In this document: positions 3,874-47,617 of the stretch, piece after piece
Position numbering within the stretch: position 1 is the stretch's first letter
Layout of the letters: each line of letters begins with the position of its first letter
DNA from: a virus
DNA: 47,617 nt
Virus record (IMG/VR): IMGVR_UViG_3300048839_000532
Location: 1-47,617 of that record
Strand: one strand, 5' to 3'
Notes under the pieces: generated by a model
What the model saw: the letters and a program-made list of their open reading frames with translations, nothing else
Told to the model about the DNA's origin: nothing
The model's database searches: none
Program-made: the position numbers and the translations under genes

Positions 3874-5944
3874 GCGCAATAGTATCGTATACGGTGACAT
3901 TGTCATTCTGTCCGATACGGTGGCATCTATCTTCGGCTTGTTGTTTTTTACCAGGAGTCCAAGGTTGCTCTACAAACAAAACTGTCGACGCCGCCGTCAA
4001 GGTGATACCTTCAGCCGCTGCCTCAAGCGAGCATACTATAACGCGGCATCCGGGGTCCGATTGAAACCGCGCTACATGCTCGGCGCGCACCGTGGCAGAG
4101 TCCGAGCCCATCACACTTGTAGCGCCCCATTGAGCCAAAGCGCCAAGCAGCTCTTGTTGGACTTCTATGTGATGCGCAAAGATTACGAGCTTTTGGTCGC
4201 CCTCCATAAAATCATTGACGAATGAGACGACCTCTTTGATTTTGCCTTGCGCGCAGAGCTTGCGCAAAACACCGATACCGACTAGCACCTTTGCCCGGGC
4301 GGCTTTTGCTGCGGCGATTTCTGCCGCCAATTGCGCGCGTGCTTCAATTTCTTCCGGAGTGCCGGCGTCCTCATCAACATCAATTGATTTGGTTTTCTCG
4401 GCGAGATAGGCAATCTCCCTGATGTACTTAACGAGGTCTTTTTCGGCTTTTGTATACTCGGCGCGATTTGCCAATTCCAACGACAGGGTTTCGTAGGTTT
4501 TTGGCGGCAGCTCGGTCAACACCTGGTCTTTTGTTCGACGGATGTAGCAAGTAGCGCGCAGTTTTGCGTTTAACTCTTCGAGATTCGATGCACCCGAGAA
4601 GTCCCAAGCCATCTTGCGCCCCGCGTTTTTCTGATGCGCATTTGTATAGCGCTGCAAAAATTTCCACTTGCCGCCGAATTCACTTAAGCGGTCCAGAATT
4701 TCCAATTGCGATGGCAGTTCGACGGGGCGATTAAGAATTGGGGTTCCAGTCAGCAAAGCGCGGTGCGGCACATTGCGGCTGATTTGATATGACGCCCTGG
4801 TCCTTTGCGCTTTGTCGTTTTTGAGATAATGCGACTCATCGCACACATAAACCTCAACACCCTCGGATGCTGCCTCGGCGAGCGGTGTGAGATTTACGTT
4901 TTTCTTCTTGTCATCAGCCCACCCGGCAGAATTCAGGTCGTAATTCACAACCAGAATGTTAGCCTTTGCCACTAAATCCGCCGGCGTTTTTGAATCGCAA
5001 ACAAGAACTAGCGTGATTGGGCACATGACACGAGCATGGGCGTATGGATATTCGGTGGCGACGTGATTGCCTTGCTGGTCGTAATGCTCGTACGAGTTTT
5101 TGCGAGGCGAGAAAAACATCTTTTGTGCACCCGGCAGGCAAGCCGCAGCCTCTTTACCCCAGTTCACCTTGACGGTAGCAGGGCAGTTGATTAGGGCTCG
5201 CTTGGCTCCCAAAAGGAAGATACCGCCCAGCGCTTGAATTGTTTTTCCAAGCCCCATGTCATCAGCAATCAGAACCCGGTCGTTTTTGAGCCAGTAATCA
5301 ACCCCGCCGTGCTGGAATGGTCTGGGCTCCTTGCCGAATCCGGTAAAGTCGAGCCGGACGCCGTCCTCAGCTCGTGAAAGTGTTGCGTTAGCGTGGGCTT
5401 TTGCAATAATTCCAGCGATTTGCTCGTAAGCGCCGGGTGCGAAATTGATGACCTTAGATAACTCAGCAGCTCCCTCGGCAGTCCCGATATTAAGGGGCGC
5501 GTGCCACATCTTTCGACCGTTATCGTCCTTAAAGCGTGCGCCAGGAATGAGCTTCTTGACTCGGTCCACGTCTGTTTGATTCCAGGGAAATTCGACAATA
5601 ATATTTCCCGATTCAATTGAAATCTGACGCGGTGAGGCAGGTTGAATGTTTGGTTTTGCAACCACCGGGCTTGTAGCGAGTTTGGCTCGAATGGCGTCCA
5701 TGTCGATTGGAGGCGGTGCGGGTGGTAGTACAGGCTTTTCGATTGCGTCATAGTTAATCCCGAATCTTGAAAGCTGCGATTTGTATTTGCGCAGCAGGTT
5801 GTAAACAGCCATCTCTTGGCGAGGGCTCCAATTCTCCGGCAGGCTTCGGATAAAACCGCCATCAAAGCGATTGAATCCGGAACCATCCTGGGCGCGCGCG
5901 CCATCGCAAACACCCAGTAAAGCGTTAACGGCTTGCTTTAGCAT
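3737..5944 (-). CDS. SNF2-family DNA helicase/translocase with HARP-like domain
   Basis: A 735-residue superfamily 2 ATPase. Residues about 115-165 resemble the HARP/annealing module of SMARCAL1-type enzymes (VDRVKKLIPGARFKDDNGRK). The ATPase core has motif I DMGLGKT at 229-235, motif II DESH at 369-372, LTGTPILNRP as motif III region, and a C-terminal helicase lobe with AAAEGITLTAA and RCHRIGQ. HARP-bearing enzymes reanneal or remodel forked DNA, so a role in phage replication-fork or recombination-intermediate processing is likely. Start ATG 5944 follows GGGAGAAATC and overlaps the gene upstream by 20 bases. It is the last gene of the leftward transcription unit and converges with the gene at 3208. 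Confidence 0.92.
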   Translation of the reverse strand: MLKQAVNALLGVCDGARAQDGSGFNRFDGGFIRSLPENWSPRQEMAVYNLLRKYKSQLSRFGINYDAIEKPVLPPAPPPIDMDAIRAKLATSPVVAKPNIQPASPRQISIESGNIIVEFPWNQTDVDRVKKLIPGARFKDDNGRKMWHAPLNIGTAEGAAELSKVINFAPGAYEQIAGIIAKAHANATLSRAEDGVRLDFTGFGKEPRPFQHGGVDYWLKNDRVLIADDMGLGKTIQALGGIFLLGAKRALINCPATVKVNWGKEAAACLPGAQKMFFSPRKNSYEHYDQQGNHVATEYPYAHARVMCPITLVLVCDSKTPADLVAKANILVVNYDLNSAGWADDKKKNVNLTPLAEAASEGVEVYVCDESHYLKNDKAQRTRASYQISRNVPHRALLTGTPILNRPVELPSQLEILDRLSEFGGKWKFLQRYTNAHQKNAGRKMAWDFSGASNLEELNAKLRATCYIRRTKDQVLTELPPKTYETLSLELANRAEYTKAEKDLVKYIREIAYLAEKTKSIDVDEDAGTPEEIEARAQLAAEIAAAKAARAKVLVGIGVLRKLCAQGKIKEVVSFVNDFMEGDQKLVIFAHHIEVQQELLGALAQWGATSVMGSDSATVRAEHVARFQSDPGCRVIVCSLEAAAEGITLTAASTVLFVEQPWTPGKKQQAEDRCHRIGQNDNVTVYDTIAPMSFDEDLAALLRDKSQIVSALADGNQQATISQLREILNRIQARH

Positions 5945-6158
5945 TAGATTTCTCCCGGTGTGTTTTGAGGTATTTGCGAATATTCAGCAACTCGGTCGCA
6001 AGCTCCAAAACTTGCCAGCGGTCTATTGATATACACTTGCCATTTTGCTCAATAATGAGCAGTTTGCGGTCTTCAAGCACTTTCAAGGTCAACCGTCCAG
6101 CGCTCTCTGTTGACTCGATTTGATGATTGAATATCTCCCGAAAAATATTTTTTGCCAT
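5925..6158 (-). CDS. Small hypothetical protein upstream of the SNF2 helicase
   Basis: A 77-residue product (MAKNIFREIFNHQIESTESA) with alternating beta-type and helical segments, ending in a basic tail. Its stop lies inside the start region of the helicase gene, so the two are probably translated together and may act together. Ribosome site AGAGG is present upstream of ATG 6158. Not a family I recognise. Confidence 0.6.
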   Translation of the reverse strand: MAKNIFREIFNHQIESTESAGRLTLKVLEDRKLLIIEQNGKCISIDRWQVLELATELLNIRKYLKTHREKSNAKASR

Positions 6159-6191
6159 TGGTCGTTTCTAGCCTCTCTGTTGAATGTTTTG

Positions 6192-6476
6192 TTAGTCCCA
6201 GGGGTTACTTTGAGGGTCCGGCACTTTTACGGGCTCTCGCGGCTTGCGGGGCGCCCGTACCGGCTTCGGCTTGCGAGTCTTTGGGGCTCGTTTTTCAGTC
6301 GGTCCCATCCTGACAGCGTGCAAAAACTCGTCAAGGGTCACGACGCCATCAGCCAGATTGAATGCTGCGTTGAGCACATACTCAGCGGTATAAGCCATCG
6401 AGCCGCCCCGTGGTGTGATTTGCTCAACCCGTTTGTGGATTTGCTCTTGAGGGTAGATGTCAAGTTTAAGTCTCAT
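6192..6476 (-). CDS. Small protein with basic Pro/Lys-rich tail
   Basis: The 94-residue product starts at ATG 6476, directly behind GGAGGCGCAAG, the same Shine-Dalgarno cassette seen on the plus strand at 2.2-2.9 kb. The N-terminal 60 residues look folded and helical (HKRVEQITPRGGSMAYTAEY), and the tail is a disordered basic segment with repeated KPR/PRKPREP motifs typical of nucleic-acid or protein docking tails. It overlaps the end of the gene before it. Function unknown. Confidence 0.65.
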   Translation of the reverse strand: MRLKLDIYPQEQIHKRVEQITPRGGSMAYTAEYVLNAAFNLADGVVTLDEFLHAVRMGPTEKRAPKTRKPKPVRAPRKPREPVKVPDPQSNPWD

Positions 6477-7113
6477 CTTGCGCCTCCACCCTGACTGGTT
6501 TGTAACCCTGCTCGGCGCAGATTCGCGCCAAAAGGTTGAAAGCCTCGTCCGGTGTTGCGGCGCTTTCAACCGCGCAATTCTGTAACTCTAATTGAGCCAA
6601 GACGGCGGACTCTTTACGTGCGGCTTGCTCTGGCGATGGTTTCCAGGACTCCTGTTCGGCAAGCCATTTGTCAAAGCCATCATCTGCGGCGTCCTCTTCC
6701 CGCTCTTGTTTCCAGCGCTTGTACTCTTGGGTTTCCCTGTATTGAGCCAAGCGGAATTTTGAGCCTAGATTGTCATTGGTAGCTGATTGTGCCACGAATT
6801 CTAACTGCCCTGGATAGCGCATCACAAAGCACATTGCCCAGTCTAACGCTTGGTCGTAGGTTTTGATTGCTTGCGCGACGTTCCATGCTTCGGCGAGCTT
6901 GAATGATTCCCAGCGGCGGGTCAGATTGCCCACTTTGCGATGCTGCCACATCTGGGTGTTTTCTTCTTGTAATCCGTAGCCAATATTCACAAGTTTTTCA
7001 AGACAGCCAGCAGTTGCGCAATGCTGCCACCCCTCTTGTTTTCTTAATTCCAGCTCGGCAGCAGCAAGCGCGAACACAAAGCGGCGTCCGTTGATTTGTC
7101 GTTTGTTTTTCAT
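6466..7113 (-). CDS. Duplicated-module protein, long form (MKNKRQINGRR family)
   Basis: A 215-residue soluble, helical, charged protein. Its first 45 residues (MKNKRQINGRRFVFALAAAE) are nearly identical to those of the gene at 7667-7885, showing that the two are copies of one gene; from about residue 50 they diverge, because the other copy continues into a zinc ribbon. The middle is rich in Trp/Arg/Glu, and the C-terminus ends VEAQDET, where the next gene's ribosome site is embedded. ATG 7113 overlaps the stop of the repeat protein before it. Function unknown. Confidence 0.65.
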   Translation of the reverse strand: MKNKRQINGRRFVFALAAAELELRKQEGWQHCATAGCLEKLVNIGYGLQEENTQMWQHRKVGNLTRRWESFKLAEAWNVAQAIKTYDQALDWAMCFVMRYPGQLEFVAQSATNDNLGSKFRLAQYRETQEYKRWKQEREEDAADDGFDKWLAEQESWKPSPEQAARKESAVLAQLELQNCAVESAATPDEAFNLLARICAEQGYKPVRVEAQDET

Positions 7114-7670
7114 TGTTTGACCTCACTATACAGGCGGATTAATCGCTTCAATTCATGACGGCGCATTCGTTCCCGAGCATAAACAGCAGCATCAGCAGCA
7201 TAAACAGCAGCATCAGCAGCATAAGCAGCATCAGCAGCAGCATCAGCAGCAGCATCAGCAGCAGCATCAGCAGCAGCAGCAGCATAAGCAGCATAAGCAG
7301 CAGCAGCAGCAGCAGCAGCAGCATAAGCAGCACGGCGAGCTTGTTGCAATTCCAACGAATCGGCTTTACCTAGCGCAAATCGGCGAGCCACTTTGATTGC
7401 GTTTAAGCTACTCTCATCCCACTTGCTTGGATGGATTTGATTTAGCGCTTGCTCGGCACACCAACAGGCAAATAGGCGCTTAGTTTTGTCATCCGGTAGC
7501 GCGCGAATTCCGACCCAAATGCGGTCAACCAGCTCGATTGATTCGTCTTTTAAGACTTCCCGCCAGGAATCATAGCCGCGGGTGATTTGCGCGTCATATT
7601 GTGTAATCGCGCGGTCACAAGGGTTTAACGCCAGGATTTGCGCGCGGTCTATTTTGATTTTTGTTTTCAT
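7110..7670 (-). CDS. Ala-Ala-Tyr/Asp repeat protein, Imm-5-like (short copy)
   Basis: 186 residues. The N-terminal about 105 residues hold a conserved helical part (ILALNPCDRAITQYD, DRIWVGIRALPDDKTKRLFACWCAEQ), followed by about 55 residues built from Ala-Ala-Tyr and Ala-Ala-Asp triplets, then a basic C-terminal helix (RERMRRHELKRLIRLY). This layout matches a family common in phages and actinobacteria, annotated by analogy as putative immunity proteins (Imm-5-like); the biochemical role is not established. The gene is a paralogue of the one at 7875-8639 with a shorter repeat. ATG 7670 overlaps the preceding stop, with AGAGG upstream. Confidence 0.75.
   Translation of the reverse strand: MKTKIKIDRAQILALNPCDRAITQYDAQITRGYDSWREVLKDESIELVDRIWVGIRALPDDKTKRLFACWCAEQALNQIHPSKWDESSLNAIKVARRFALGKADSLELQQARRAAYAAAAAAAAAYAAYAAAAADAAADAAADAAADAAYAADAAVYAADAAVYARERMRRHELKRLIRLYSEVKQ
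7179..7336 (-). repeat. Trinucleotide low-complexity array encoding Ala-Ala-Tyr/Asp
   Basis: The plus strand reads as irregular alternations of GCAGCATAA and GCAGCATCA units. On the coding strand these become GCT GCT TAT/GAT. Unit length is a multiple of three, so slippage changes repeat number without a frameshift. Confidence 0.9.
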
Positions 7671-7885
7671 TGGTTCCTCTCAGAATCAGATAGACAGGGG
7701 TTATCAGGGGTGAATGATTCATCTACCCAGCCACATTCAGGGCATTCATAGCCAATATCTACGAGCTTTTCTAAGCATCCGCTCGTGGCGCGATGCTGCC
7801 ATCCTTCTCGTTTTCTTAATTCCAGTTCGGCGGCGGCAAGCGCAAAAACGAAGCGCCGCCCGTTGATTTGTCGTTTATTTTTCAT
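7667..7885 (-). CDS. Hybrid of MKNKRQ-family N-terminus and zinc ribbon
   Basis: 72 residues from ATG 7885 (an in-frame TTG at 7894 is less likely). Residues 1-42 copy the start of the gene at 6466-7113; the remainder (YECPECGWVDESFTPDNPC, ending SERNQ) matches the end of the small zinc-ribbon protein at 8636-8770. It therefore looks like a fusion produced during tandem duplication of the module. The CPECGW pair and a further Cys could bind zinc. It is coupled by overlap to repeat-protein genes on both sides. Confidence 0.7.
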   Translation of the reverse strand: MKNKRQINGRRFVFALAAAELELRKREGWQHRATSGCLEKLVDIGYECPECGWVDESFTPDNPCLSDSERNQ

Positions 7886-8639
7886 CTCTGGCAATCCTTT
7901 TGTGGGTGGTGATTAGCTTCTTCAGTGTGTGACGGTGCATTTTGTGGCGGGCAGCAGCATCATAAGCAGCATAAGCAGCAGCAGCAGCAGCAGCATAAGC
8001 AGCATCATAAGCAGCATCATAAGCAGCATCAGCAGCAGCATAAGCAGCAGCATCAGCAGCAGCATAAGCAGCATCATAAGCAGCATCAGCATAAGCATAA
8101 GCAGCAGCATCAGCAGCAGCATCAGCAGCATCATAAGCAGCATAAGCAGCAGCATCATAAGCAGCAGCATCAGCATAAGCAGCAGCAGCATAAGCAGCAG
8201 CAGCAGCAGCATCATCATAAGCAGCAGCATAAGCAGCATAAGCAGCATAAGCAGCAGCATCAGCAGCAGCATAAGCAGCATAAGCAGCAGCAGCAGCGGC
8301 ACGGCGAGCTGTTTGCAGCTCCAATGTATTTACTTTGCCATTTGCGAAATCACGAGCCACCTTGATTGCATTTAAACTGCGTTCATCCCATTTGCTTGGG
8401 TGAATCTGATTTAGCGCTTGCTCAGCGCACCAACAGGCGAACAAGCGTTTTTGCCGGTCATCGGGTAGCGCGCGAATACCAACCCAAATACGGTCAAGAG
8501 GCTCGATTGATTCGTCTTTCAGGCAATCAATCCAGGAATTATAGCCTTGGCTGATTTGTGCGTCATACTGTGTCACCGCACGACCGCATGGCGTCAGAGC
8601 TAGGATTTGTTCGCGCTCAATTCTAGTTTTACTTTTCAT
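7875..8639 (-). CDS. Ala-Ala-Tyr/Asp repeat protein, Imm-5-like (long copy)
   Basis: 254 residues. The first 110 are highly similar to the short paralogue at 7110-7670 (QILALTPCGRAVTQYDAQIS, DRIWVGIRALPDD), followed by about 115 residues of Ala with Tyr or Asp at every third to fourth position, roughly twice the length of the other copy, and a basic His-rich C-terminus. Such repeats could form a long helical or solenoid surface. ATG 8639 lies in the repeated junction GAGAGGAACCAATGAAA also used at 7670. Function unknown; the Imm-5-like assignment rests on family resemblance recalled from other phages. Confidence 0.75.
   Translation of the reverse strand: MKSKTRIEREQILALTPCGRAVTQYDAQISQGYNSWIDCLKDESIEPLDRIWVGIRALPDDRQKRLFACWCAEQALNQIHPSKWDERSLNAIKVARDFANGKVNTLELQTARRAAAAAAYAAYAAADAAAYAAYAAYAAAYDDAAAAAAYAAAAYADAAAYDAAAYAAYDAADAAADAAAYAYADAAYDAAYAAADAAAYAAADAAYDAAYDAAYAAAAAAAYAAYDAAARHKMHRHTLKKLITTHKRIARDEK
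7950..8300 (-). repeat. Long trinucleotide array encoding Ala-Ala-Tyr/Asp
   Basis: About 350 bases made almost entirely of GCA, TAA and TCA triplets on the plus strand (GCAGCATAAGCAGCATCA pattern). The coding strand is GCT, TAT and GAT. The array is over twice the length of the related one at 7179-7336, so array length clearly varies. Confidence 0.9.
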
Positions 8640-14322: not shown

Positions 14323-14853
14323 ATGAAACCTGAACACTTTCAAGGTTTTTGGAAGGCGCTGTCAGAGCGCGATGGTGCCATTGAAAAATTCGCGAATCTG
14401 CTTGCGCTTTGCGAGGAATTTTCCGTCAAGCTCGACTATTCGACTCCGGTCAGTGGTGGTGAGTGGATTGTGAATGTCGCTCACTTCGGCGACCGTACTG
14501 AATTTCGTTTTCCGCGTTTGAATTTCAATGCGCGTGATGCGTACAACACAATTTCTCAACGCCTAATAAAAGCGAAAACGAAGCTCGAAGCCGAGCAAGA
14601 AAAGGAGGCGCCCAAAAGTGTGCCTACCACTTCTGACGAGCCCTCCACCAGCGAGCCCGCGCAAGATGGACCCGTGGACATGGGCGATGCTCATGACACC
14701 GCGAAGACACCCACCGACCAGGGAAAGTCATTAGAGGATTCGACCCAGGAGTCCGAGAATCAATCGTCCAGCAATGGCGAGACCGTTTCGGAAACTACCA
14801 CCGAGCCCGAGAATGGAGCCGAAAAGTCGGCGAAGAAAAAGGAGAAGAAGTAA
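14323..14853 (+). CDS. Acidic protein with long disordered tail
   Basis: 176 residues; ATG 14323 follows AGAGGTAG. The N-terminal 85 residues look folded (KFANLLALCEEFSVKLDYST, then beta strands). From about residue 90 the chain is Glu/Asp/Ser/Thr/Pro-rich and repetitive in composition, ending in a Lys-rich tag (EKSAKKKEKK). The folded half plus long acidic tail is common in DNA-mimic or protein-sequestering factors; that is only a guess. Next gene starts on the base after its stop. Confidence 0.6.
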   Translation: MKPEHFQGFWKALSERDGAIEKFANLLALCEEFSVKLDYSTPVSGGEWIVNVAHFGDRTEFRFPRLNFNARDAYNTISQRLIKAKTKLEAEQEKEAPKSVPTTSDEPSTSEPAQDGPVDMGDAHDTAKTPTDQGKSLEDSTQESENQSSSNGETVSETTTEPENGAEKSAKKKEKK

Positions 14854-15246
14854 ATGAAAACGTTTGCCCGTGCAGCATTTGTTGCAGTATTCGCAACTTC
14901 TATCGTGGCTTTGCCAGCCCACTCTATTCCGAATGAAGACTACAAGCGCACTATCCAAATGGTCGAAGGTAGTGACGTGACACAGTTCACGTTGACGCCA
15001 GTGCGTGCTGGCGGGCAAGTAAACGCGATTTGGGTTAGCAATGGAGACAATGTGGTACCGGAGCCAACCCCCAAGTCTGATACTGACAAGAAAATCACTT
15101 CGCTAAAAAACACAATTGAGATGATGCGCGAGCGCTTTAATAATGCGACTTTGAATTTCGAGGCTCGCATCAAAGAGCTTGAGCGCAAAGTCGCCGGAAT
15201 GCAAAAGCAAATTACAATCCTGCACGCAAAGAAGGTGAATAAATGA
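14854..15246 (+). CDS. Exported coiled-coil protein
   Basis: 130 residues. The N-terminus (MKTFARAAFVAVFATSIVAL) is a good Sec signal peptide with a likely cut after PAHS or AHA-like residues near 24. The mature protein has a short beta-rich part, a Pro/Asp linker, and from residue 85 a coiled coil (MRERFNNATLNFEARIKELE). It may act in the periplasm or at the envelope. It begins directly after the acidic-tail gene and overlaps the next one. Confidence 0.7.
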   Translation: MKTFARAAFVAVFATSIVALPAHSIPNEDYKRTIQMVEGSDVTQFTLTPVRAGGQVNAIWVSNGDNVVPEPTPKSDTDKKITSLKNTIEMMRERFNNATLNFEARIKELERKVAGMQKQITILHAKKVNK

Positions 15247-32579: not shown

Positions 32580-33176
32580 ATGTTGAAAAGACTTTCCCCG
32601 ATGCTGGTGGTAGCGCAGGTGGTGGCAATGCTGTTGGCTTTTACGCCGATGGCATTCGCCGCTACCGAGACTTCCCACTCGTATAGCAATCAGGCTATCT
32701 ACGGAAACCTGAGTGTAAGCGGGACAACTTCGCTAACCGGCGCACTGACACTGGGCACCCCGCTCGCGGGCTCCAATGTCACGAATGCCGCAAGGCGTTT
32801 CCGTATAACGGTACCCCTGTCGCCCGTAACTGGCGCAGCGGCTGACTCCACTACTTACAGGGCTCTCATCCCTGTGGGTAGAGCTTGCACCGTAACTGGT
32901 GTCAGCTTCGTGGCTCAAACCCCTCCCGTTGGTGGCACTGACACCTTGAAGGCGCTCAAGGGCAGCTCGTCCGGCAATACATTGCTGAGCGCTGCGTCCA
33001 TCAATGCGACCGGATTGGCGGCAAACACCACAACCAATGCGACCCTGACCTCGACCGCTGCTGATTTGGCTATCCCGGCGACCACTCCTATTTATTTGGA
33101 GTACGCACAGGGCTCGGCTGGGACGGATGCGATTGGCGTCTTTGGTTCTGTTGAAGTGCAGGTAACGGACTACTAA
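32580..33176 (+). CDS. Signal-peptide-bearing beta-rich head/tail protein
   Basis: 198 residues. Residues 1-27 form a textbook secretory signal: two Lys/Arg, a hydrophobic core (VAQVVAMLLAFTPMAFA) and cleavage after AFA/A. The mature part begins ATETSHSYSNQAIYGNLSVS and is Thr/Ser/Ala/Gly-rich all-beta, as in phage fibre or decoration proteins (SVSGTTSLTGALTLGTP). The ATG is behind AAAGGAGTG. The gene lies in the head-tail cluster, directly after the capsid gene and overlapping the adaptor gene, so a secreted form of a virion protein is implied. Confidence 0.75.
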   Translation: MLKRLSPMLVVAQVVAMLLAFTPMAFAATETSHSYSNQAIYGNLSVSGTTSLTGALTLGTPLAGSNVTNAARRFRITVPLSPVTGAAADSTTYRALIPVGRACTVTGVSFVAQTPPVGGTDTLKALKGSSSGNTLLSAASINATGLAANTTTNATLTSTAADLAIPATTPIYLEYAQGSAGTDAIGVFGSVEVQVTDY

Positions 33177-33940
33177 TGCTCTACGGCGAATTTTGTGACA
33201 GAACTCTTGAGTTTCACGGTCAGCAGGCGATACCGCCTCAGAACTTTGGGACTGACAATGAAACGAAGTATCAAAGACAGATGCGTCGTTTCTTTGAGTT
33301 CTGTCACGAAGCCGTTTTGAGCCGAATGAATGAGCCGTGGATGCAGCGGCGCTTTCAATTACCACTGTCCGCCGGAGTCGCCGAGTATGACCTGGATGAC
33401 ACAGCGGCAGTCGAGAACCTTGTGCCCTTTTCAATCATCTTGCTCGGCACGGACTCGCCTGGCAGGATGAAAGCGTATCCAGGCGGCTATAATGCCTGGC
33501 GTCGAATCTATACAGATGACTCCCTTGTTTCGACCGCGCAGCCATGCTGGTGGCTCGAAGTCCCAACGGATTCCGCCTCCGCGGTGCGCACGAAGCGGGT
33601 TCGCTTTGACCCCATCCCGGACGCCGCCTACGTCTGCGAGTATCAGTGCAAAATCAACGTGCCGACACCGCAAAACCGCGAGGACATCCTGGTCTTCCCT
33701 GACGACTACATCTTCGCATTACAAGCCGCGGCGGGGACCTTGCTTGAGTGGTCGCTAAAGGGTGGTGTCACCGATGGTACTATCTACGAGCTTGCCAAGC
33801 AGGCTGTCGACTCTGTTAAGCAGTGGTCGACCGGACCATCGGAGCGCAAGCCGGGCGTCCGGATGGACGTTAGAATTGCCGGTCGCACCCCTCGGCGGGG
33901 CTATGGCACCAACACGGTTGGGCGCCAAGGGTGGTATTAA
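33176..33940 (+). CDS. Head-tail adaptor (tail tubular A-like) protein
   Basis: 254 residues. Helical N-terminus (TKYQRQMRRFFEFCHEAVLS), a central beta-rich portion (LPLSAGVAEYDLDDTAAVEN), and a C-terminal helix, resembling the podovirus ring proteins (T7 gp11, P22 gp4) that bind under the portal. Position between capsid and nozzle genes agrees. ATG 33176 overlaps the preceding TAA. Confidence 0.7.
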   Translation: MLYGEFCDRTLEFHGQQAIPPQNFGTDNETKYQRQMRRFFEFCHEAVLSRMNEPWMQRRFQLPLSAGVAEYDLDDTAAVENLVPFSIILLGTDSPGRMKAYPGGYNAWRRIYTDDSLVSTAQPCWWLEVPTDSASAVRTKRVRFDPIPDAAYVCEYQCKINVPTPQNREDILVFPDDYIFALQAAAGTLLEWSLKGGVTDGTIYELAKQAVDSVKQWSTGPSERKPGVRMDVRIAGRTPRRGYGTNTVGRQGWY

Positions 33941-35587
33941 ATGCCACCACTAACCCTATCCGCTGAAGCTGGTCTTGCAACCTACGTCTCCGACCTGAGA
34001 CGTCCGACCACCAAAGCCAAAGTATTGAACAACGTCAACCAGGTGAAGCGGGGCGTCGTCACTTCGCGCGTGCGCGGCTGGGAAAGGGTGCGTGCTGACG
34101 ATTTCAATGGTGGTGCAAAGTTTTTAGGATTCTCCGAATTTATCCTTGCCGCTGACGGCTCAAAAAATCTCATCTTTCAGGTCGGCGACAAGATTTATTC
34201 TTACGACTTCGGGACGGAAACGGAAACGGAAATCGCTAACAGCCTTGACCCGGCAGCGATTCCAAATTTTGCCATGTTTCAGCCATACGCCTCGGGTCCA
34301 TCTTTCGGCATCTTCTCAAACGGCGAAGACGAGCCGCTTAAAATCACCGACTTGTCGACCTCGGCAGCCTTCGAGCTGAATGGTAGCGCCTATGGTGGCG
34401 GTGCGGCGACCACATCCCCGATGCCAGCAAAGAGCTACGGCATCCCCAAGTTTGTCGTGCCATTCCTCGACAGGCTGTTGATTTTTGGCTTTCCTGACGA
34501 CGACACCCGGTATGATGTGCTCATTACAAACACGGGCGAAGCAGAAGTCGTCACGCAGGCAACGCCGCTACTCGCGACCGATGGAGACATGCGCCAATTG
34601 CCACCCCGTCTGGGTAATCCCACAGGTGGCGTCAGCTTTAGATTGTCGAACGCTGACAACATCCAAATCGCGCTCATAGCCTGTGAGAGCGGCGTCTGTA
34701 TGCTCTCCGGCACGGATGCGACAAATTTTTCCTTGACAGTTCTTACCGAAGAATACGGCATCCCGAGCAACCACACCTGGATTCCGCTTTATAACGACAT
34801 GTGGTTTTTCTCCGACAAGGGACTGACCTCGTTCTCGACTTTGGCGAGCAACTCCTCACTGCTTACCGACATGCTCTCGATGGACATTCAGGACATCATC
34901 GCGCGCGTCAACCCGGCTCACGCCTACAAGATTCATGCTTTCCACAACAAGCGCACGCAGGACATTGTCATCTGGCTGCCGCTCGATGCAAATACGGAAT
35001 GCCAGGACGCGATTGTCGCGAACTACAACAACGACTTCTCTCAGCCCGGTCGCCCGGTCCCGCAGTGGTTCACCAAATCCGGTACCACCGTTACTGCGTC
35101 TATTTACTTCAATAAAGAGTCTATCGGCGGTGGTATTGACGGCGTTTTGCAGCGTCACTATGTCGGCACCAAGTACGACACCGCGCCCGTTCCGTTTGAA
35201 ATAATGACAGCCTTGATGGGTGTTCAAAATCCGCTTAAATCAATGCAGATACAAGAGATTGGGGTCGTCTGCGAGGGTGCAGCCCAGCGGTTTATCATGA
35301 ACGCCTTCCAGTACGTGCGAACCGTGAAGGAATCAATGATTCGCAACCAGGCGAAGCCTCAAGACTTTCGCATGACCGCCGACGACACTGGCACGCAAAC
35401 CATTCTCGATTCGTGGATAGCCGACTCCAGTTCATTCCCCGCCGACCAGGTCAAAGTCCTGAAGCAGTATAGCTGTCTGGGCGCTTGTGATTTTGTCGAA
35501 TTTCAAATCAAAGGGCAGGACGAGGACGACAATATCGATTTTGTTCAAATAGTCGCAGATGTAGACATGATGGGAAATAAAATATGA
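33941..35587 (+). CDS. Tail tube/nozzle (beta-propeller stabilisation) protein
   Basis: 548 residues, nearly all beta. The start MPPLTLSAEAGLATYVSDLR with VNQVKRGVVTSRVRGWERVR is the pattern of podovirus nozzle proteins, and repeated blade-like segments follow (SKNLIFQVGDKIYSYDFG; PFLDRLLIFGFPDDDTRYDV; NDMWFFSDKGLTSFSTLASN). Such proteins form the hexameric tube tip and hold the DNA in. The ATG abuts the preceding stop. Confidence 0.75.
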   Translation: MPPLTLSAEAGLATYVSDLRRPTTKAKVLNNVNQVKRGVVTSRVRGWERVRADDFNGGAKFLGFSEFILAADGSKNLIFQVGDKIYSYDFGTETETEIANSLDPAAIPNFAMFQPYASGPSFGIFSNGEDEPLKITDLSTSAAFELNGSAYGGGAATTSPMPAKSYGIPKFVVPFLDRLLIFGFPDDDTRYDVLITNTGEAEVVTQATPLLATDGDMRQLPPRLGNPTGGVSFRLSNADNIQIALIACESGVCMLSGTDATNFSLTVLTEEYGIPSNHTWIPLYNDMWFFSDKGLTSFSTLASNSSLLTDMLSMDIQDIIARVNPAHAYKIHAFHNKRTQDIVIWLPLDANTECQDAIVANYNNDFSQPGRPVPQWFTKSGTTVTASIYFNKESIGGGIDGVLQRHYVGTKYDTAPVPFEIMTALMGVQNPLKSMQIQEIGVVCEGAAQRFIMNAFQYVRTVKESMIRNQAKPQDFRMTADDTGTQTILDSWIADSSSFPADQVKVLKQYSCLGACDFVEFQIKGQDEDDNIDFVQIVADVDMMGNKI

Positions 35588-36459
35588 AATATCGGGGTAT
35601 TATCATAAACCTGCTGGTGGCGCTGATTTTCGCCATCCCCTGCTTTGCGACCGTGGTATCGTCGGCGGTGGTACCCACGACCAGGGCGTCCGGCTTTACT
35701 GTCACAAACACCATCTGGAATAGCGACGTCGGCGGCGTTTATTCGTACATAAATAACAACATTGTCCCAGTCTTAAACAAGCTCACCACGAAAGGGGATA
35801 TGTATGTTTACGATGGGTCCTCGCTTCAAAGGCTCGCAGCAGGCACGGACGGACAGGTCCTCACCGCAGCCTCTGGCGATTCCAAGGGTGTCGCTTTTGC
35901 ATCCTTTGCAAACGCCGCCCAGCTCACCACAAAAGGAGACATACTCACCTACGCCTCCGGTGCGACAAGGCTTGGGGTCGGTGCGAACGGAAGGGTTCTC
36001 ACGGCTCGAAGTTCAGCCACCGAAGGCATTGCTTGGGAATCTTCAGCCTCTGCCATTCCGACCGGAACTATTATCGCCTGGTCGCCCGCCGCAGCCGCGA
36101 CAAACACTATCCCCACTGGCTGGCTCCTTTGCGATGGAGCCAGCGGCACCCCGAACCTTATCGGTCGTTTCATTATTGGCACGCGACCCGGGGGCTCTGC
36201 CGCCGCCCCTGCTGTGGATGGTTACGGAGCCCAGACCGTCGATGCCAATGGCTCGGGCTCGGTCAATCACACTCACGCCGTAGACGCCGCCAGTGGTACC
36301 ACCACCGCTGCGAATTCGGTTATCGGCGGTGCGCAAGTTGGCGCGACTATTTTGTCGGGTGGCAGCCATACGCATACTTTTGTTGTAAATGCTGGTGTTA
36401 CGGGCGCCACCACGTCCGAGCCGGCTGATTACGCCCTCGTGTACATCATGAAGCAATGA
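35584..36459 (+). CDS. Tail-collar-domain protein with signal peptide (copy 1)
   Basis: 291 residues. The N-terminus (MKYRGIIINLLVALIFAIPC) is a signal peptide with cleavage after CFA. The repeat segments TTKGDMYVYDGSSLQRLAAG and TTKGDILTYASGATRLGVG are short fibre modules. The tail-collar motif follows from about residue 160: PTGTIIAWSPAAAATNTIPT, then GWLLCDGASGTPNLIGRFII. The C-terminus is Gly/Thr/His-rich (SGSVNHTHAVDAASG). Paralogue of the next gene. Collar domains sit in tail-fibre proteins; a secretory leader on one is not expected. Confidence 0.8.
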   Translation: MKYRGIIINLLVALIFAIPCFATVVSSAVVPTTRASGFTVTNTIWNSDVGGVYSYINNNIVPVLNKLTTKGDMYVYDGSSLQRLAAGTDGQVLTAASGDSKGVAFASFANAAQLTTKGDILTYASGATRLGVGANGRVLTARSSATEGIAWESSASAIPTGTIIAWSPAAAATNTIPTGWLLCDGASGTPNLIGRFIIGTRPGGSAAAPAVDGYGAQTVDANGSGSVNHTHAVDAASGTTTAANSVIGGAQVGATILSGGSHTHTFVVNAGVTGATTSEPADYALVYIMKQ

Positions 36460-37343
36460 CAAATCTCATTCGGCTATTTTTGGTTTTTCTTTTGACAACG
36501 GCAGTCGCCGGCGCCTCGGTGTGCCCGCCGATTGGACAGCCTGCTCGGTTTAATCCGGGCGACATAATGCGCACTCTGGACCATTGGAATCCGACCGTAG
36601 TCGGCGCCTACACGTGGCTTAATACAAACGTGGTGGCACCACTCAACTTGCTTGTGACGAAAGGCGACTTGTATGTCTACGATGGCGCCCATTTGCAAAA
36701 GTTGGCGGCTGGCACCAACGGTCACAAAATCGTATCGAGAAGCTCCGAGCAGACTGGCGTCAAGTGGGAGAGCTACTCTGGCGAGCAACCACTCACCACC
36801 AAGGGTGACCTGCTCTACTTTCAAGACAAGCTCGTCAAGCGCCTGCCAGTTGGCGTGGACGGACAGGTTTTAACGGTGAGCATGACAGGCATTCCGTCAT
36901 GGTCGAGCGCCTTATCAAACCCATTCCCGACTGGCTCAATCGTCTCGTGGTCTCCCGCCGCCGCTGGCACCTCAACTATTCCGTCCGGCTGGGCTCTTTG
37001 CGATGGAAGCAGCGGCACCCCGAATTTAATCGGCTTGTTTGTTATCGGCACCAAGCCCAACGGTTCATCGTCAAGCGCTTCAAGCGGCGGCTTTGGGGCT
37101 TATACCGCAAACTCTCAGCATGGTAGTAATACCCATGTACACAGCGGCTACATCGCAAGCATTTTTACCGGTGGAACAAGTGACGGCTCAAACAGCCAAG
37201 CCCCGATAATCCTTAACGGTGCCCCAAACCAGTTTGGCAACCCCGGGTCTCACTACCACCTAATCCCCCCGTTCGTTCGCTCAATTCAAACAGCCGCCAG
37301 CGAGCCCGCCGACTACGCCCTTTGCTACATCATGAAACTGTGA
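36456..37343 (+). CDS. Tail-collar-domain protein with signal peptide (copy 2)
   Basis: 295 residues, sharing with copy 1 the whole order: signal peptide (IRLFLVFLLTTAVAGA), fibre modules (LVTKGDLYVYDGAHLQKLAA), collar motif (PFPTGSIVSWSPAAAGTSTI, PSGWALCDGSSGTPNLIG), and a variable C-terminus ending SEPADYALCYIMKL, which matches the SEPADYALVYIMKQ end of copy 1. It is therefore a tandem duplicate with diverged outer part. ATG 36456 overlaps the previous stop. Confidence 0.8.
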   Translation: MTNLIRLFLVFLLTTAVAGASVCPPIGQPARFNPGDIMRTLDHWNPTVVGAYTWLNTNVVAPLNLLVTKGDLYVYDGAHLQKLAAGTNGHKIVSRSSEQTGVKWESYSGEQPLTTKGDLLYFQDKLVKRLPVGVDGQVLTVSMTGIPSWSSALSNPFPTGSIVSWSPAAAGTSTIPSGWALCDGSSGTPNLIGLFVIGTKPNGSSSSASSGGFGAYTANSQHGSNTHVHSGYIASIFTGGTSDGSNSQAPIILNGAPNQFGNPGSHYHLIPPFVRSIQTAASEPADYALCYIMKL

Positions 37344-37350
37344 GGAACCG

Positions 37351-37752
37351 ATGCGCACATCAAACCTAGTCACCTTCAATCCCAGCCGGGATTTGCCGAA
37401 AAATTACAACAGTTCGGGCGACTATGTCATCGGGGCTGGCAATTACGCCATCGGCGACAAAGCACCGGGCTCGGCTGGTGGTCCAGCACTAAACGACCTC
37501 GCGGCGGCGCATGGCTATATTTACGAAAGCAACATCGCCTCCGTTCTTGTTGATACGGCATGTCAGCTCGCGGTCTATATTTTTAACAAAACATGGGGAG
37601 AGTGGACAAAGGCGGGCGCTGCCGCCGCCGATTACACAAAATCCATTGAAGAAAGGGGGCAATGGGCTTTCACGGGACAGGAAGGCACCGCGTTTTATCT
37701 TGTCTCGGATACCCCGGTCGTGAGGGCAACAGTACATGCGGCTCGTCAATAA
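37351..37752 (+). CDS. Small virion-associated protein
   Basis: 133 residues from ATG 37351 behind GAGGAACC. Contains a beta-rich part (VLVDTACQLAVYIFNKTWGE) and a Gly-rich middle. No signal peptide, unlike its neighbours. Lies between the two collar genes and the long fibre gene and overlaps the latter, so a fibre-assembly or adaptor role is reasonable but unproven. Confidence 0.55.
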   Translation: MRTSNLVTFNPSRDLPKNYNSSGDYVIGAGNYAIGDKAPGSAGGPALNDLAAAHGYIYESNIASVLVDTACQLAVYIFNKTWGEWTKAGAAAADYTKSIEERGQWAFTGQEGTAFYLVSDTPVVRATVHAARQ

Positions 37753-40177
37753 GCTCCTTGCGCTATTTCTAGCGTTCACAATCTTTGCACCATGGGCGAT
37801 AGCGGACTCCCCCGCCGTCCTCCAGGGTCCACCCGTTGGCTGGCTGCCTAGCCTGTCCGGTGTGGCGCCCCTTGATGCGAGCTATTTCACTCTCAGCTCA
37901 AACTCGAATCTAACGAACGAGCGCGTCTTGACGTTCTCGGTGCCACAGTTCTCGGTTTCCGACAATGGACCGGGCAATACTTACGTCGTCGGACTTGGTC
38001 CCATCCTCTCCTACTGGTACGGCACTGGGGCAACGACCAATCAGACGGCGTTCAACGCTATCTCAAATCTGCCCTCGTCAGCAACCGGCGATATCTTCTA
38101 CAAAAACTCGGCGACAACCGTCACCCGATTGCCAATTGGCACCGCCGGGCAATTCCTGAAGGTTAACGCTGGCGCCACGGCTCCCGAGTGGGCCTCTGGT
38201 GGTGGTGGCGGCGGTGGCGCTCCGGATGATGCGCATTACGTAGTCACCCAGGGCGATGGCGCGCTGGCAAATGCCCACGTAGCAGACGATGGCGACGGGA
38301 CGACCGCTGTTGTCGGTTCGGGCACTTTTGCAATAGATGTAGATTCGACGGTTGTCAGAACCACTGGCGCGCAGACCCTTGGCGGTCCAAAGACGCTCAC
38401 TGGTGGACCTGTTATCGCCGACGCGAATACCGACGGTCTGGACCTGGAAGGCTCAATCGCCACCACAAAGATAGTCACTGACCCCGGCTCAAATCAAACC
38501 GTCACTATCCCATCCGTGGGCACATCGTCTTTTGTTATGACGGCTGGCGCGCAAACCATTGGCGGTGTCAAAACTTTATCAGCGGCTCCCGTTCTTTCGA
38601 CAGGCACCTTGACTGCCGGTGCCAACTTGATGACGTTCCCATCGAGCGCACAAACACTTGTTGGCAGAACCTCGACCGACACTCTGACAGATAAAGAATT
38701 GACCTCGCCGTCATTCACAAACAACGCGACCGGTATGACCTTAAAAGGGTCAAGCTCCAATACCTTTGTGGTCGATTGGGCGCCCGGTGCGACCGGTCAA
38801 ACTCTCAGCCTACCGAACCCCAACGGTAACGTAGACATTGCTTACAAATCCGGCGCCGCAACCGCCGGTGGTGTCGCCCAGGGGGTTGGAAATAACACTA
38901 TAAATTTTTCCAGCGCGGGCACCTCCGGACAGCCCTTTCTCAGTGGCGGCACATCCGCTGGCTCGTTCGGCACACTTGGAGCGGGCGGCGGTGGCACCGG
39001 AAGTTCTAGCTATTCGGCTGGTGACATCCTTTATGCGACTGGTTCGACAACGCTTGCAAAGCTGCCAATCGGCACTGCCGGGCAGTCCCTAAAGGTCAAT
39101 TCCGGCGCAACCGCCCCCGAGTGGAGTAGCGGCGGCGCGGGCACCGTAACCAGCGTTGGAGCTGCCGGACCAACCGGTATCGCAACATGGTCATCAGCGA
39201 TTACATCGTCAGGCACTCTGACGCAAACGCTGAGCGATCAAAGCGCTAATACATTTCTGGCAGGTCCAGCATCTGGCTCTGCGACGACTCCCGCTTTCCG
39301 TGTTCACGCGATTGGTGACTATACAAACCTCCCAATCTGCAATGGTGGCAGATTAACATTAACGAGCGGCTCTGCGGTCGCTGACGCATCCGCTCAAGGC
39401 ACTTTGTATTGGACGCCATTTAAACATGGCGTAATCAGCCTGTACGACAGCGGCGCATCTCGATACGTAAATATTCTGCCTGGCGAAAAATCGCTTTCGC
39501 TAACGCTCACCAGTGGTAGTGTGTATGACGTATGGGGTTATTTAAGTGGTGGCACGCTGGCGCTTGAAACGCTAGTTTGGACTGACACAACAACCCGCGC
39601 CACTGGATTGACTATCGATTCATCGGGAGTCACTCACAAAACGGGCGATCAGACTCGTAGATTTCTCGGAACACTTTATGCCAGTGGCACCAATCAATGT
39701 ACTGATAATCAATCGATCCGAGGACTATTTAACGCCGATAACAGAGCCTCTCGTATTGCAGTTTGCAAAGACACGACAAACTCATGGACCTATACTACCG
39801 CCGCCTATAGAGCGATCAACAACAACACCACCGACGGTGGCGGACAAGTATCTTTTGTTCTCGGTGCGCCTACTTCCGTATCAGCGCAAGCGGTACACAC
39901 CACTAGGCACAACAATATAGGAACTGCGAACCGCTATTGCGGCATCGGGCTAGACTCCGCAACGGCAAATTCAGCGTTTAACGGAACTTCTTCAACGACC
40001 AGCGGCGCCACAATTAGTGCCTGTATCCACTTCGCAACTTACGGTGCAACGGTTGGGATCGGGAAACATGCACTAATCATGCAGGAATACAGCGATGCTA
40101 CCGGAACGACAACCTGGTATGGCGATGACGGTGGCTCGGCTTTACAAACCGGCATGACAGTACGTTTGGAGATGTAG
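37736..40177 (+). CDS. Long tail fibre / receptor-binding protein with signal peptide
   Basis: 813 residues. Signal peptide (MRLVNKLLALFLAFTIFAPW, cut near AIA/DSP). The shaft has repeated fibre modules (LPIGTAGQFLKVNAGATAPE near residue 140 and LPIGTAGQSLKVNSGATAPE near 445) and a Gly-rich hinge. The C-terminal part from about residue 530 has the mobile tip domain GRLTLTSGSAVADASAQGTL, then YWTPFKHGVISLYDSGASRY, found at the end of many unrelated phage fibres, and a receptor tip beyond. This tip contains five of the genome's six GATC sites, marking it as imported. Confidence 0.85.
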   Translation: MRLVNKLLALFLAFTIFAPWAIADSPAVLQGPPVGWLPSLSGVAPLDASYFTLSSNSNLTNERVLTFSVPQFSVSDNGPGNTYVVGLGPILSYWYGTGATTNQTAFNAISNLPSSATGDIFYKNSATTVTRLPIGTAGQFLKVNAGATAPEWASGGGGGGGAPDDAHYVVTQGDGALANAHVADDGDGTTAVVGSGTFAIDVDSTVVRTTGAQTLGGPKTLTGGPVIADANTDGLDLEGSIATTKIVTDPGSNQTVTIPSVGTSSFVMTAGAQTIGGVKTLSAAPVLSTGTLTAGANLMTFPSSAQTLVGRTSTDTLTDKELTSPSFTNNATGMTLKGSSSNTFVVDWAPGATGQTLSLPNPNGNVDIAYKSGAATAGGVAQGVGNNTINFSSAGTSGQPFLSGGTSAGSFGTLGAGGGGTGSSSYSAGDILYATGSTTLAKLPIGTAGQSLKVNSGATAPEWSSGGAGTVTSVGAAGPTGIATWSSAITSSGTLTQTLSDQSANTFLAGPASGSATTPAFRVHAIGDYTNLPICNGGRLTLTSGSAVADASAQGTLYWTPFKHGVISLYDSGASRYVNILPGEKSLSLTLTSGSVYDVWGYLSGGTLALETLVWTDTTTRATGLTIDSSGVTHKTGDQTRRFLGTLYASGTNQCTDNQSIRGLFNADNRASRIAVCKDTTNSWTYTTAAYRAINNNTTDGGGQVSFVLGAPTSVSAQAVHTTRHNNIGTANRYCGIGLDSATANSAFNGTSSTTSGATISACIHFATYGATVGIGKHALIMQEYSDATGTTTWYGDDGGSALQTGMTVRLEM

Positions 40178-40182
40178 TAAGT

Positions 40183-40635
40183 ATGAAACTTTCGACTCTG
40201 TTGACATTTTCAGTAGCACTATTTTTAGTAGTGCTCCCCGTCTCCGCGAAAACCGGGCAGACAGCCTTTGACGAGTATCTTAGAGCGCAGGGTATCCCGA
40301 TTGACGGGATTTCTGGCAGTGGTGCGGACTGTCGAATCGACTTCAAACCGGAAGCTACTCAGAAACAGAGAGATTGGGCCAGCGCAGAAAGAGCAACTTT
40401 TGATTGGGTGGATACGCCAGGCCCAGATTACCGAGGTTTTCGCTTTGCCTGCTATAAGCTTTCGCAGGTTAACGCCGCCCACATTCCGTACATCAACGTA
40501 CTTTCCGACCCCGAGTTGTCCGACGCTGACCGCAAAGCATTGTGGGCGAAAGCAAAAGGATTGTTGGGCAACTTAGACCCGGCATCGTCACGCATTGAAA
40601 GCACTGCCGCCACATATGGAGTCGCGCTCAAATGA
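40183..40635 (+). CDS. Exported protein with signal peptide, next to fibre tip
   Basis: 150 residues. A clear signal peptide (MKLSTLLTFSVALFLVVLPV, cut after VSA). The mature part is helical with TAFDEYLRAQGIPIDGISGS and two Cys that could form a disulphide (GADCRIDF and FACYKLSQ). It carries two of only seven GGCC sites in the window, so with the fibre tip upstream it is probably part of the imported segment. Could be a fibre accessory or periplasmic chaperone. Its stop overlaps the endolysin start. Confidence 0.65.
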   Translation: MKLSTLLTFSVALFLVVLPVSAKTGQTAFDEYLRAQGIPIDGISGSGADCRIDFKPEATQKQRDWASAERATFDWVDTPGPDYRGFRFACYKLSQVNAAHIPYINVLSDPELSDADRKALWAKAKGLLGNLDPASSRIESTAATYGVALK

Positions 40636-41177
40636 TTAATGCCGCACGAAAAATTTCGCCAGCCGGATTGCACCGCCTTAAAAATTATGAGGCGTTCAGG
40701 TCGAAGCCCTACGACGATAAAAATTCCAAAGATAAAAAAGGAAATCCAATTGACTGGAATCCTTCAATGCCTTTAAAAGGAAAGCTGACCGTCGGATACG
40801 GGCGCGTGCTCTGGAATCCAAAGACTGACTACGAGAAATACAAGAACGGCGTAACCGAGGCGCAAGCATCACAGATGCTTTTGGAGGACTTACGACGGTT
40901 CGAGAATTCTGTTAGGGTCGAGGTGAAAATCCCGCTTGAGCAGCATGAGTATGACGCCATCGTCATTTTTATCTTCAATATTGGCTTGGGCGACCGCAAA
41001 CAAGGCATCGCTGGCTTCACTACTTCTACCCTTCTTAAGCGACTTAATGAAGGCAAGAAAACAGAAGCCGCAAATCAGTTGCTGCGCTGGGTGTACTCCG
41101 GCGGTCAATACACGCCCGGACTGCTCACCCGCAGACAAAGAGAACGCACCATCTTCTTGACAGGAAAATACGCATGA
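40632..41177 (+). CDS. Endolysin, T4-type lysozyme (muramidase, GH24)
   Basis: 181 residues. The active-site region has Glu20 (LKNYEAFRSKPYDD) as likely catalytic acid and KLTVGYGRVL with the TxGYG motif at 53-57. The C-terminal lobe has VIFIFNIGLGDRK, then GFTTSTLLKRLNEG and the family hallmark GLLTRRQRERTIFL. It hydrolyses the N-acetylmuramic acid bond of peptidoglycan. No signal peptide or SAR segment is seen, so release needs a holin, matching the membrane genes just downstream. Confidence 0.9.
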   Translation: MINAARKISPAGLHRLKNYEAFRSKPYDDKNSKDKKGNPIDWNPSMPLKGKLTVGYGRVLWNPKTDYEKYKNGVTEAQASQMLLEDLRRFENSVRVEVKIPLEQHEYDAIVIFIFNIGLGDRKQGIAGFTTSTLLKRLNEGKKTEAANQLLRWVYSGGQYTPGLLTRRQRERTIFLTGKYA

Positions 41178-47318: not shown

Positions 47319-47501
47319 ATGCCAAAAGTAAAGGCAAAAACCAGAACAAAGAAAGAGGACGCGAACAAGAGAGCACAAATCGACATGCCGGATGACATGC
47401 GTGACTCGCTTGACGAAATCAAAGAACATCTAGGCATCCGACGCCGAGCGGAGCTGGTTAGGTTTATCCTCGGCGAGTACATAAGGGGCCGGGAAAAATG
47501 A
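47319..47501 (+). CDS. Ribbon-helix-helix DNA-binding protein
   Basis: 60 residues from ATG 47319, behind GAGAGGGACC. A basic N-terminal arm (MPKVKAKTRTKKEDANKR) is followed by RAQIDMPDDMRDSLDEIKEH, the strand and first helix of an RHH domain, and LGIRRRAELVRFILGEYI, the second helix. RHH repressors bind short repeated operators as dimers, so this is a candidate for the protein that recognises the dispersed 17-bp dyads. Its own gene stands behind such a site. Stop overlaps the next ATG. Confidence 0.8.
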   Translation: MPKVKAKTRTKKEDANKRAQIDMPDDMRDSLDEIKEHLGIRRRAELVRFILGEYIRGREK

Positions 47502-47617
47502 AAGCGCCAGGGAAACTTTCAATAACCGACATCATGATTGCGGTCGTGGGTCGCGGCGTGCGCGTCAACGAATTCGGCATTACCGACGAGCTGGCTTTTG
47601 CTGGCGGAAGCCCGGTC
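47421..47617. repeat. Right copy of the terminal direct repeat
   Basis: Same 197 bases as at 1-197 with C at 47490 in place of T at 70. This copy carries a GGCC (47487-47490), a site otherwise nearly absent from the genome, whereas the left copy does not. Confidence 0.9.
47498..47617 (+). CDS. Second copy of the gene at 78-467, cut by window end
   Basis: The first 40 codons (MKAPGKLSITDIMIAVVGRG...) are identical to those starting at 78 and are truncated only because the window ends. They should be read as the same gene in the circular molecule. Confidence 0.85.
   Translation, partial: MKAPGKLSITDIMIAVVGRGVRVNEFGITDELAFAGGSPV

Follow-up and report, generated by a model that had tools for sequence, protein, structure and literature searches.

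Virion proteins with cleaved Sec leaders are familiar from filamentous phage M13 (pIII and pVIII), whose virions are assembled in the membrane by extrusion. The assembly of tailed phages is, in the textbook account, cytoplasmic. The DNA analysed here (the window) is a whole stretch of 47,617 nucleotides (nt), IMG/VR record IMGVR_UViG_3300048839_000532, and unlike M13 it represents a tailed phage, equipped with genes for terminase, portal and endolysin. Five genes of its head-tail-fibre block, named here by their start positions (32580, 35584, 36456, 37736 and 40183; Table 1), each have an N-terminal Sec-type leader, and tail collar fibres and a long fibre are among their products. Leaders on fibres are odd, because tailed particles are thought to be built wholly in the cytoplasm. 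A leader on a tail fibre is also kept, over deep divergence, in a widespread group of uncultivated lake phages in IMG/VR. Judged from the sequences, exported tail fibres look real and recurrent.

The closest described systems differ from this arrangement in several ways. Lom of phage lambda likewise has a signal peptide and a gene in the tail-fibre region (PMC12309495); it is, however, a beta-barrel outer-membrane protein, whereas the window products match fibre or collar families or none. In Porphyromonas phages (Nixviridae), signal peptides have been predicted on major capsid proteins and on five proteins that follow the Q-rule, i.e. Gln at +1 (PMC10367356). There, the capsid leaders were ascribed to prohead protease cleavage, the Q-rule genes had no known function and no fibres were reported (PMC10367356). 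Pseudanabaena phage Pam5 (ON014757) shares the podovirus gene order TerL, portal, scaffold, major capsid protein, cement, adaptor, head completion and fibres. Its tail spike aligns to 37736 (27% identity over 239 amino acids, aa), and two small exported genes follow the spike, but its own cement, fibre, receptor-binding protein and spike genes lack leaders. The collar fibres of the window have in common with those of PF07484 and PHROG 1800 the collar motif, the conserved C-terminal EPADYALxYIMK, the repeat modules and a place behind the nozzle gene; the collar and other tailed-phage fibres sampled are leaderless, whereas those of the window carry leaders. Tail fibres and Sec export are each familiar, and their conserved combination was not found described in the literature searched. 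Tail-fibre signal peptides appeared there in mentions of method only; few subscription journals were covered, and an earlier description may exist.

Leaders were scored with a home-made scheme combining n-region charge, h-region hydrophobicity and a cleavage-site weight matrix. The positive set comprised 37 Escherichia coli signal peptides, compiled by hand, with leave-one-out scores of 7.3-28.7 (median 19.1). The five window leaders fall inside this range (27.6 for 32580, 10.1 for 35584, 8.7 for 36456, 9.6 for 37736 and 13.0 for 40183), and in a 49-kb control stretch of E. coli K-12 none of 30 cytosolic proteins and one membrane protein passed. All five have the positive n-region, uncharged hydrophobic h-region and small residues at -3 and -1 of a signal peptidase I (SPI) substrate. 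A reading of the window made from its sequence alone (the sequence-only reading) had proposed convincing Sec signal peptides and cleavage sites on these genes and none on the neighbouring capsid, adaptor and nozzle genes. The leaders and their absence from the neighbours are borne out; as to cleavage sites, that of 32580 (AFA|A) is excellent, while 35584, 36456 and 37736 have strongly hydrophobic leaders with modest site scores. Lipoprotein (signal peptidase II) leaders were considered and rejected: there is no lipobox, and the cysteines in AIPC (35584) and ASVC (36456) have no small residue at -1. On this sequence evidence the leaders are taken to be genuine Sec/SPI-type signals on fibre-type genes. 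By analogy with the lake lineage, the proteins would be exported and their leaders removed.

The translation starts are well defined. An AAAGGAG Shine-Dalgarno (SD) site precedes 32580, GAGG lies upstream of 37736 and GGAG upstream of 40183; the start of 35584 lies in an ATGA stop-start overlap with the nozzle gene, and that of 36456 in an ATGA overlap with the stop of the preceding gene. No credible in-frame start was found between leader and body in 32580, 35584, 37736 or 40183, and 36456 has one weak alternative ATG at codon 38. With starts fixed by SD sites or ATGA overlaps, it is unlikely that the true starts lie downstream of the hydrophobic segments, as the sequence-only reading had considered.

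Only 5 of 68 greedily chosen window genes pass the scorer, and all lie within the eight-gene block 32580-40635 (hypergeometric P = 5.4e-6), a value that is somewhat optimistic because two genes outside that set may also be exported. One, at 14854-15246, has a probable signal peptide (score 15.5) followed by a coiled coil and was dropped from the greedy set; the other, at 464-925, is a probable exported gene whose start near 464 scores a borderline 7.5.

Table 1. Genes in and beside the head-tail-fibre block of the window
Position	Strand	Product	Leader	Match
31634		capsid	none	
32580..33176	+	198 aa; mature part starts ATETSHSY	MLKRLSPMLVVAQVVAMLLAFTPMAFA 32580-32660	
33176..33940	+	adaptor (SU10_adaptor)	none	PF24175, E 4.8e-6
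33941..35587	+	nozzle-like	none	23% identity to equivalent MW495066 gene (phmmer E 5e-18)
35584..36459	+	291-aa tail collar fibre	MKYRGIIINLLVALIFAIPCFA 35584-35649	PHROG 1800, E 1e-18
36456..37343	+	295-aa tail collar fibre	MTNLIRLFLVFLLTTAVAGA 36456-36515	PHROG 1800, E 3e-14
37351..37752	+	133-aa gene within fibre block	none	no family found
37736..40177	+	813-aa fibre	MRLVNKLLALFLAFTIFAPWAIA 37736-37804	BppL_N (PF18338), E 3.8e-8
40183..40635	+	150-aa small exported protein (predicted); two Cys in mature part	MKLSTLLTFSVALFLVVLPVSA 40183-40248	
40632..41177	+	T4-type endolysin, adjoining exported genes	none	PF00959, E 3e-31

The description of the protein bodies as fibre, collar or decoration-like holds for part of the block. 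35584 and 36456 are paralogues (46% identity overall) with differing leader sequences, yet both keep one. Their Pfam Collar scores (18.8 and 17.8 bits) fall below the curated cut-off of 24, and both match the PHROG 1800 profile; in a sequence search of solved structures, 35584 matched only collar/fibre entries (6ov6 and 9qgo), and nothing credible was retrieved for 37736 or 32580. The fibre encoded by 37736 contains repeated LPIGTAGQxLKVNxGATAPEW modules. 32580 comes immediately after the gene for the major capsid protein, where Pam5 has its cement gene, and this position suggests a putative virion or decoration protein. It has no Pfam or PHROG family and no sequence match to a known cement protein. 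A fibre-like N-terminal 45 aa is followed by a predicted beta-sandwich of 9-10 strands in a low-confidence model (predicted local distance difference test, pLDDT, 54); against PDB and BFVD the model retrieved only generic beta-sandwich and collagen-fibre-head matches, which are uninformative at that pLDDT. Matches to birnavirus capsids were dismissed as generic beta-barrels. 40183 has no Pfam, PHROG or phage match, and a resemblance to an XkdW-like fibre partner was not confirmed, motif and family searches being empty. It need not be a virion protein, as small exported genes beside tail genes are common, for example in Pam5; a virion role for it is unsupported.

A 197-nt direct repeat (1-197 and 47421-47617, 99% identical) indicates that the window is a complete genome, terminally redundant or circular, whereas its record lists it as linear and lacking end repeats. 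PHROGs recognized no further fibre gene in the window, many of whose genes match nothing. Exact or degenerate protein scans of IMG/VR with the capsid, adaptor, portal, collar N-terminus and nozzle sequences recovered the identical contig 3300048592_000447 and otherwise only phages that are cyanophage-like, very distant and leaderless; scans of bacterial and archaeal genomes gave no homologue, six pattern matches being unrelated proteins. Relatives with the same pattern, which the sequence-only reading had proposed to seek, are therefore not available in usable form for the window itself, but an unrelated lineage with a conserved fibre leader was found.

The lake lineage was entered through one leader-bearing fibre (in record L163), whose GLGTAATNP repeat was used for an IMG/VR pattern search. 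Among 70 open reading frames (ORFs) with this repeat and a complete N-terminus, the great majority have a leader followed by Gln. Where the mature N-terminal motif xVVxPTNFW occurs in frame near the start, a leader precedes it in 78/78 instances; 20 leaderless instances from the same search lie in different frames, whose protein sequence is unrelated. The 78 include many near-duplicates, and 57 loci collapse to 37 distinct sequences. In 34 aligned distinct sequences, Gln occupies +1 (34/34), followed by Thr at +2 and Arg at +3, and Ser occupies -4 (34/34); -1 is only Gly, Ala or Ser, and -3 is Gly, Val or Ser. In the leader, the ratio of non-synonymous to synonymous polymorphism (pN/pS) is 0.60 in frame but 0.90 and 1.17 when the frame is shifted; the mature N-terminus has 0.18. 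What is preserved in a leader is thus its character and not its exact letters. Both leader and motif are retained by two members whose TerL is 31-32% identical to that of L163. No shared ancestry was detected between the exported fibres of the window and the lake lineage (phmmer, E < 0.01), and the TerL match (BLASTP E 0.005) extends over 40 aa only. This lack of protein homology suggests that the fibre leaders probably arose independently.

Gln at +1 after SPI cleavage is the Q-rule of Bacteroidetes, reported to be specific to that phylum (PMC5837995). Its presence at +1 suggests that the lake lineage probably infects Bacteroidota. The window leaders are followed by A, T, S, D and K and so break the rule; the host of the window is thus probably outside the Q-rule group. 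Nine lake phage records (L179, L184, L197, L206, L216, L218, L224, L228 and L244) also carry, far from the fibre block, a 93-aa exported protein with a leader, Gln at +1 and the sequence QDGSFxGTxxDLxSGRxQVI.

In the lake phages TerL is followed by an LtfC-type fibre-assembly gene, and then by a 107-aa gene and the exported fibre; before the portal there is often another LtfC-type gene, accompanied by a leaderless fibre. The exported fibre matches PHROG tail-fibre families (1e-9), and in one 49-kb record it is the sole gene scored with a leader; another record has a second exported fibre-type gene (L270:6016-7041). Mean identity is 83% over the N-terminal 45 aa and 42% over the last 150 residues; a conserved N-terminus with a variable C-terminus is how receptor-binding fibres are usually built. 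These fibres are almost free of cysteine, with 2 Cys in 24,050 residues (0.08 per 1000); the leaderless fibres that these phages also encode have 51 in 13,462 (3.8 per 1000), and TerL has 226 in 19,007. The depletion relative to the leaderless fibres has P ~1e-20 at residue level and 1e-10 in a per-protein rank test, both of which ignore relatedness. Avoidance of Cys fits an oxidizing compartment in which no disulphides are planned; it therefore supports export of the lake fibre and, for that lineage, contradicts the maturation by disulphides that the sequence-only reading had suggested for the window. In the window, 32580 and 35584 (one Cys each after cleavage) also speak against disulphides, which are possible for 37736 (five) and 40183 (two).

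A mechanism can be proposed in which the leaders act as working Sec/SPI signals: the host would translocate these proteins of fibre type through the inner membrane and trim off the leader. Once exported, they would serve as virion adsorption fibres. Folding and trimerization would take place beyond the cytoplasm, and the fibres would be kept in the periplasm or on the cell surface until holin and endolysin open the envelope and let them attach to completed particles. Every step after export, virion membership included, is one that we infer. Addition of fibres or spikes to completed particles is possible in extracts, as with T4 fibres and the P22 tailspike. We lean towards such late-joining adsorption fibres, exported and then attached at lysis, while rating the idea somewhat short of an even chance. 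Three points favour it: these are late structural genes, the window is otherwise without a recognized fibre, and fibres of other phages can attach to finished particles; in a complete genome in which every recognized fibre gene bears a leader, any fibre on the particle would have to be an exported one. The broader proposal, that some tailed phages build receptor-binding fibres extracytoplasmically, via Sec export, periplasmic maturation and joining during lysis, and that this arose at least twice, is put forward with more reserve still; tailed phages are not known to use such a route of assembly.

Several observations weigh against late-joining fibres. None of 87 collar-matching ORFs in IMG/VR, and none of 88 complete IMG/VR fibre ORFs sharing the fibre modules of the window, has a genuine leader; such modules evidently work leaderless, and leaders on them are unusual. 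The sole close relative of the window, 3300048592_000447, is identical at 14,491/14,491 bases and so gives no information on conservation of the window leaders. The mature exported window proteins are not depleted in Cys (7.3 versus 5.0 per 1000, P 0.26). The lake phages also encode leaderless fibres, and hence may not need the exported one on the particle.

This last point is shared by the possibility that the exported copies never join virions and act as decoys or receptor blockers that, set in the envelope or released, occupy receptors against superinfection or against loss of progeny on debris. Conserved export signals, C-termini that vary like those of receptor binders and the separate leaderless fibres of the lake phages all fit this explanation, and exported genes in tail clusters are known, for example that of Lom, which in lambda lies between the spike and the fibre genes (PMC12309495). 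However, the genes belong to the late structural operon (the lake fibre has its place after TerL and before the portal), a late point at which to control superinfection; there was no sign of an outer-membrane anchor, a barrel or a lipobox; and the window would be left without any recognized virion fibre. Decoys are rated close behind late-joining fibres, if on the doubtful side.

It is improbable that the genes are morons or lysogenic surface adhesins, i.e. phage-borne bacterial-type fibres that alter host attachment or aggregation. Phages do carry exported genes, including the Q-rule proteins of Porphyromonas phages (PMC10367356), but those described here lie inside TerL-portal and nozzle-fibre blocks and include matches to PHROG tail-fibre families. 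In addition, a scan of 84,980 bacterial and archaeal genomes with the fibre-repeat pattern produced nothing but chance matches to proteins that are not fibres, and no integrase was recognized in the window. Equally unlikely are hydrophobic N-termini that stay uncleaved and either hold fibre assembly at the inner membrane, an anchoring role raised by the sequence-only reading, or serve as docking segments in the virion. The very hydrophobic leaders and modest site scores of 35584, 36456 and 37736 would suit such a role, but the cleavage-site positions, -1 and +1 among them, are conserved in the lake lineage and the site of 32580 is excellent; exposed greasy leaders on virion proteins would also tend to aggregate. 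Mis-called starts or functionless hydrophobic stretches are very improbable, even with a home-made scorer that passes one E. coli membrane protein and window leaders whose only relative is identical, given the firm starts, the clustering (P ~5e-6), the 0/30 cytosolic controls and an independent lineage with conserved leaders.

Conserved export signals on fibres would imply either an unrecognized extracytoplasmic step in assembly or the export of fibre copies as decoys. Both readings bear on receptor binding, on superinfection and on the handling of engineered or predicted fibres. An annotation pipeline that trimmed or overlooked the leader would misplace the mature N-terminus.

Some other features were observed in these records. 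MW495066.1 ('Microcystis phage MaAM05'; region 200204-231256), source of the nozzle match, has lepA, proS, ftsH, aspS, kimA and hppA flanking a phage head-tail module, and looks like bacterial DNA carrying an integrated element, not a phage genome. On the minus strand of the window, 7098-8639 holds adjacent paralogues (7110-7670, with a weak Imm-5-like match, and 7875-8639) that both match PHROG 18326 and contain arrays of 9- and 12-nt repeats. At L022:3578-4960, a leaderless collar fibre is followed by a 460-aa exported protein with repeated Cys motifs (NPLYxxxCxGYExAYxxQQC). L267:6392-7192 is a sulfotransferase-like gene between tandem leaderless fibre-like genes (5459-6382 and 7668-8588). 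L027:10075-10605 (minus strand) encodes a 176-aa exported protein of a family, annotated as hypothetical or 'OMP1 protein', that is widespread among phages; its relatives occur in 164 phage records, almost all from cyanophages.

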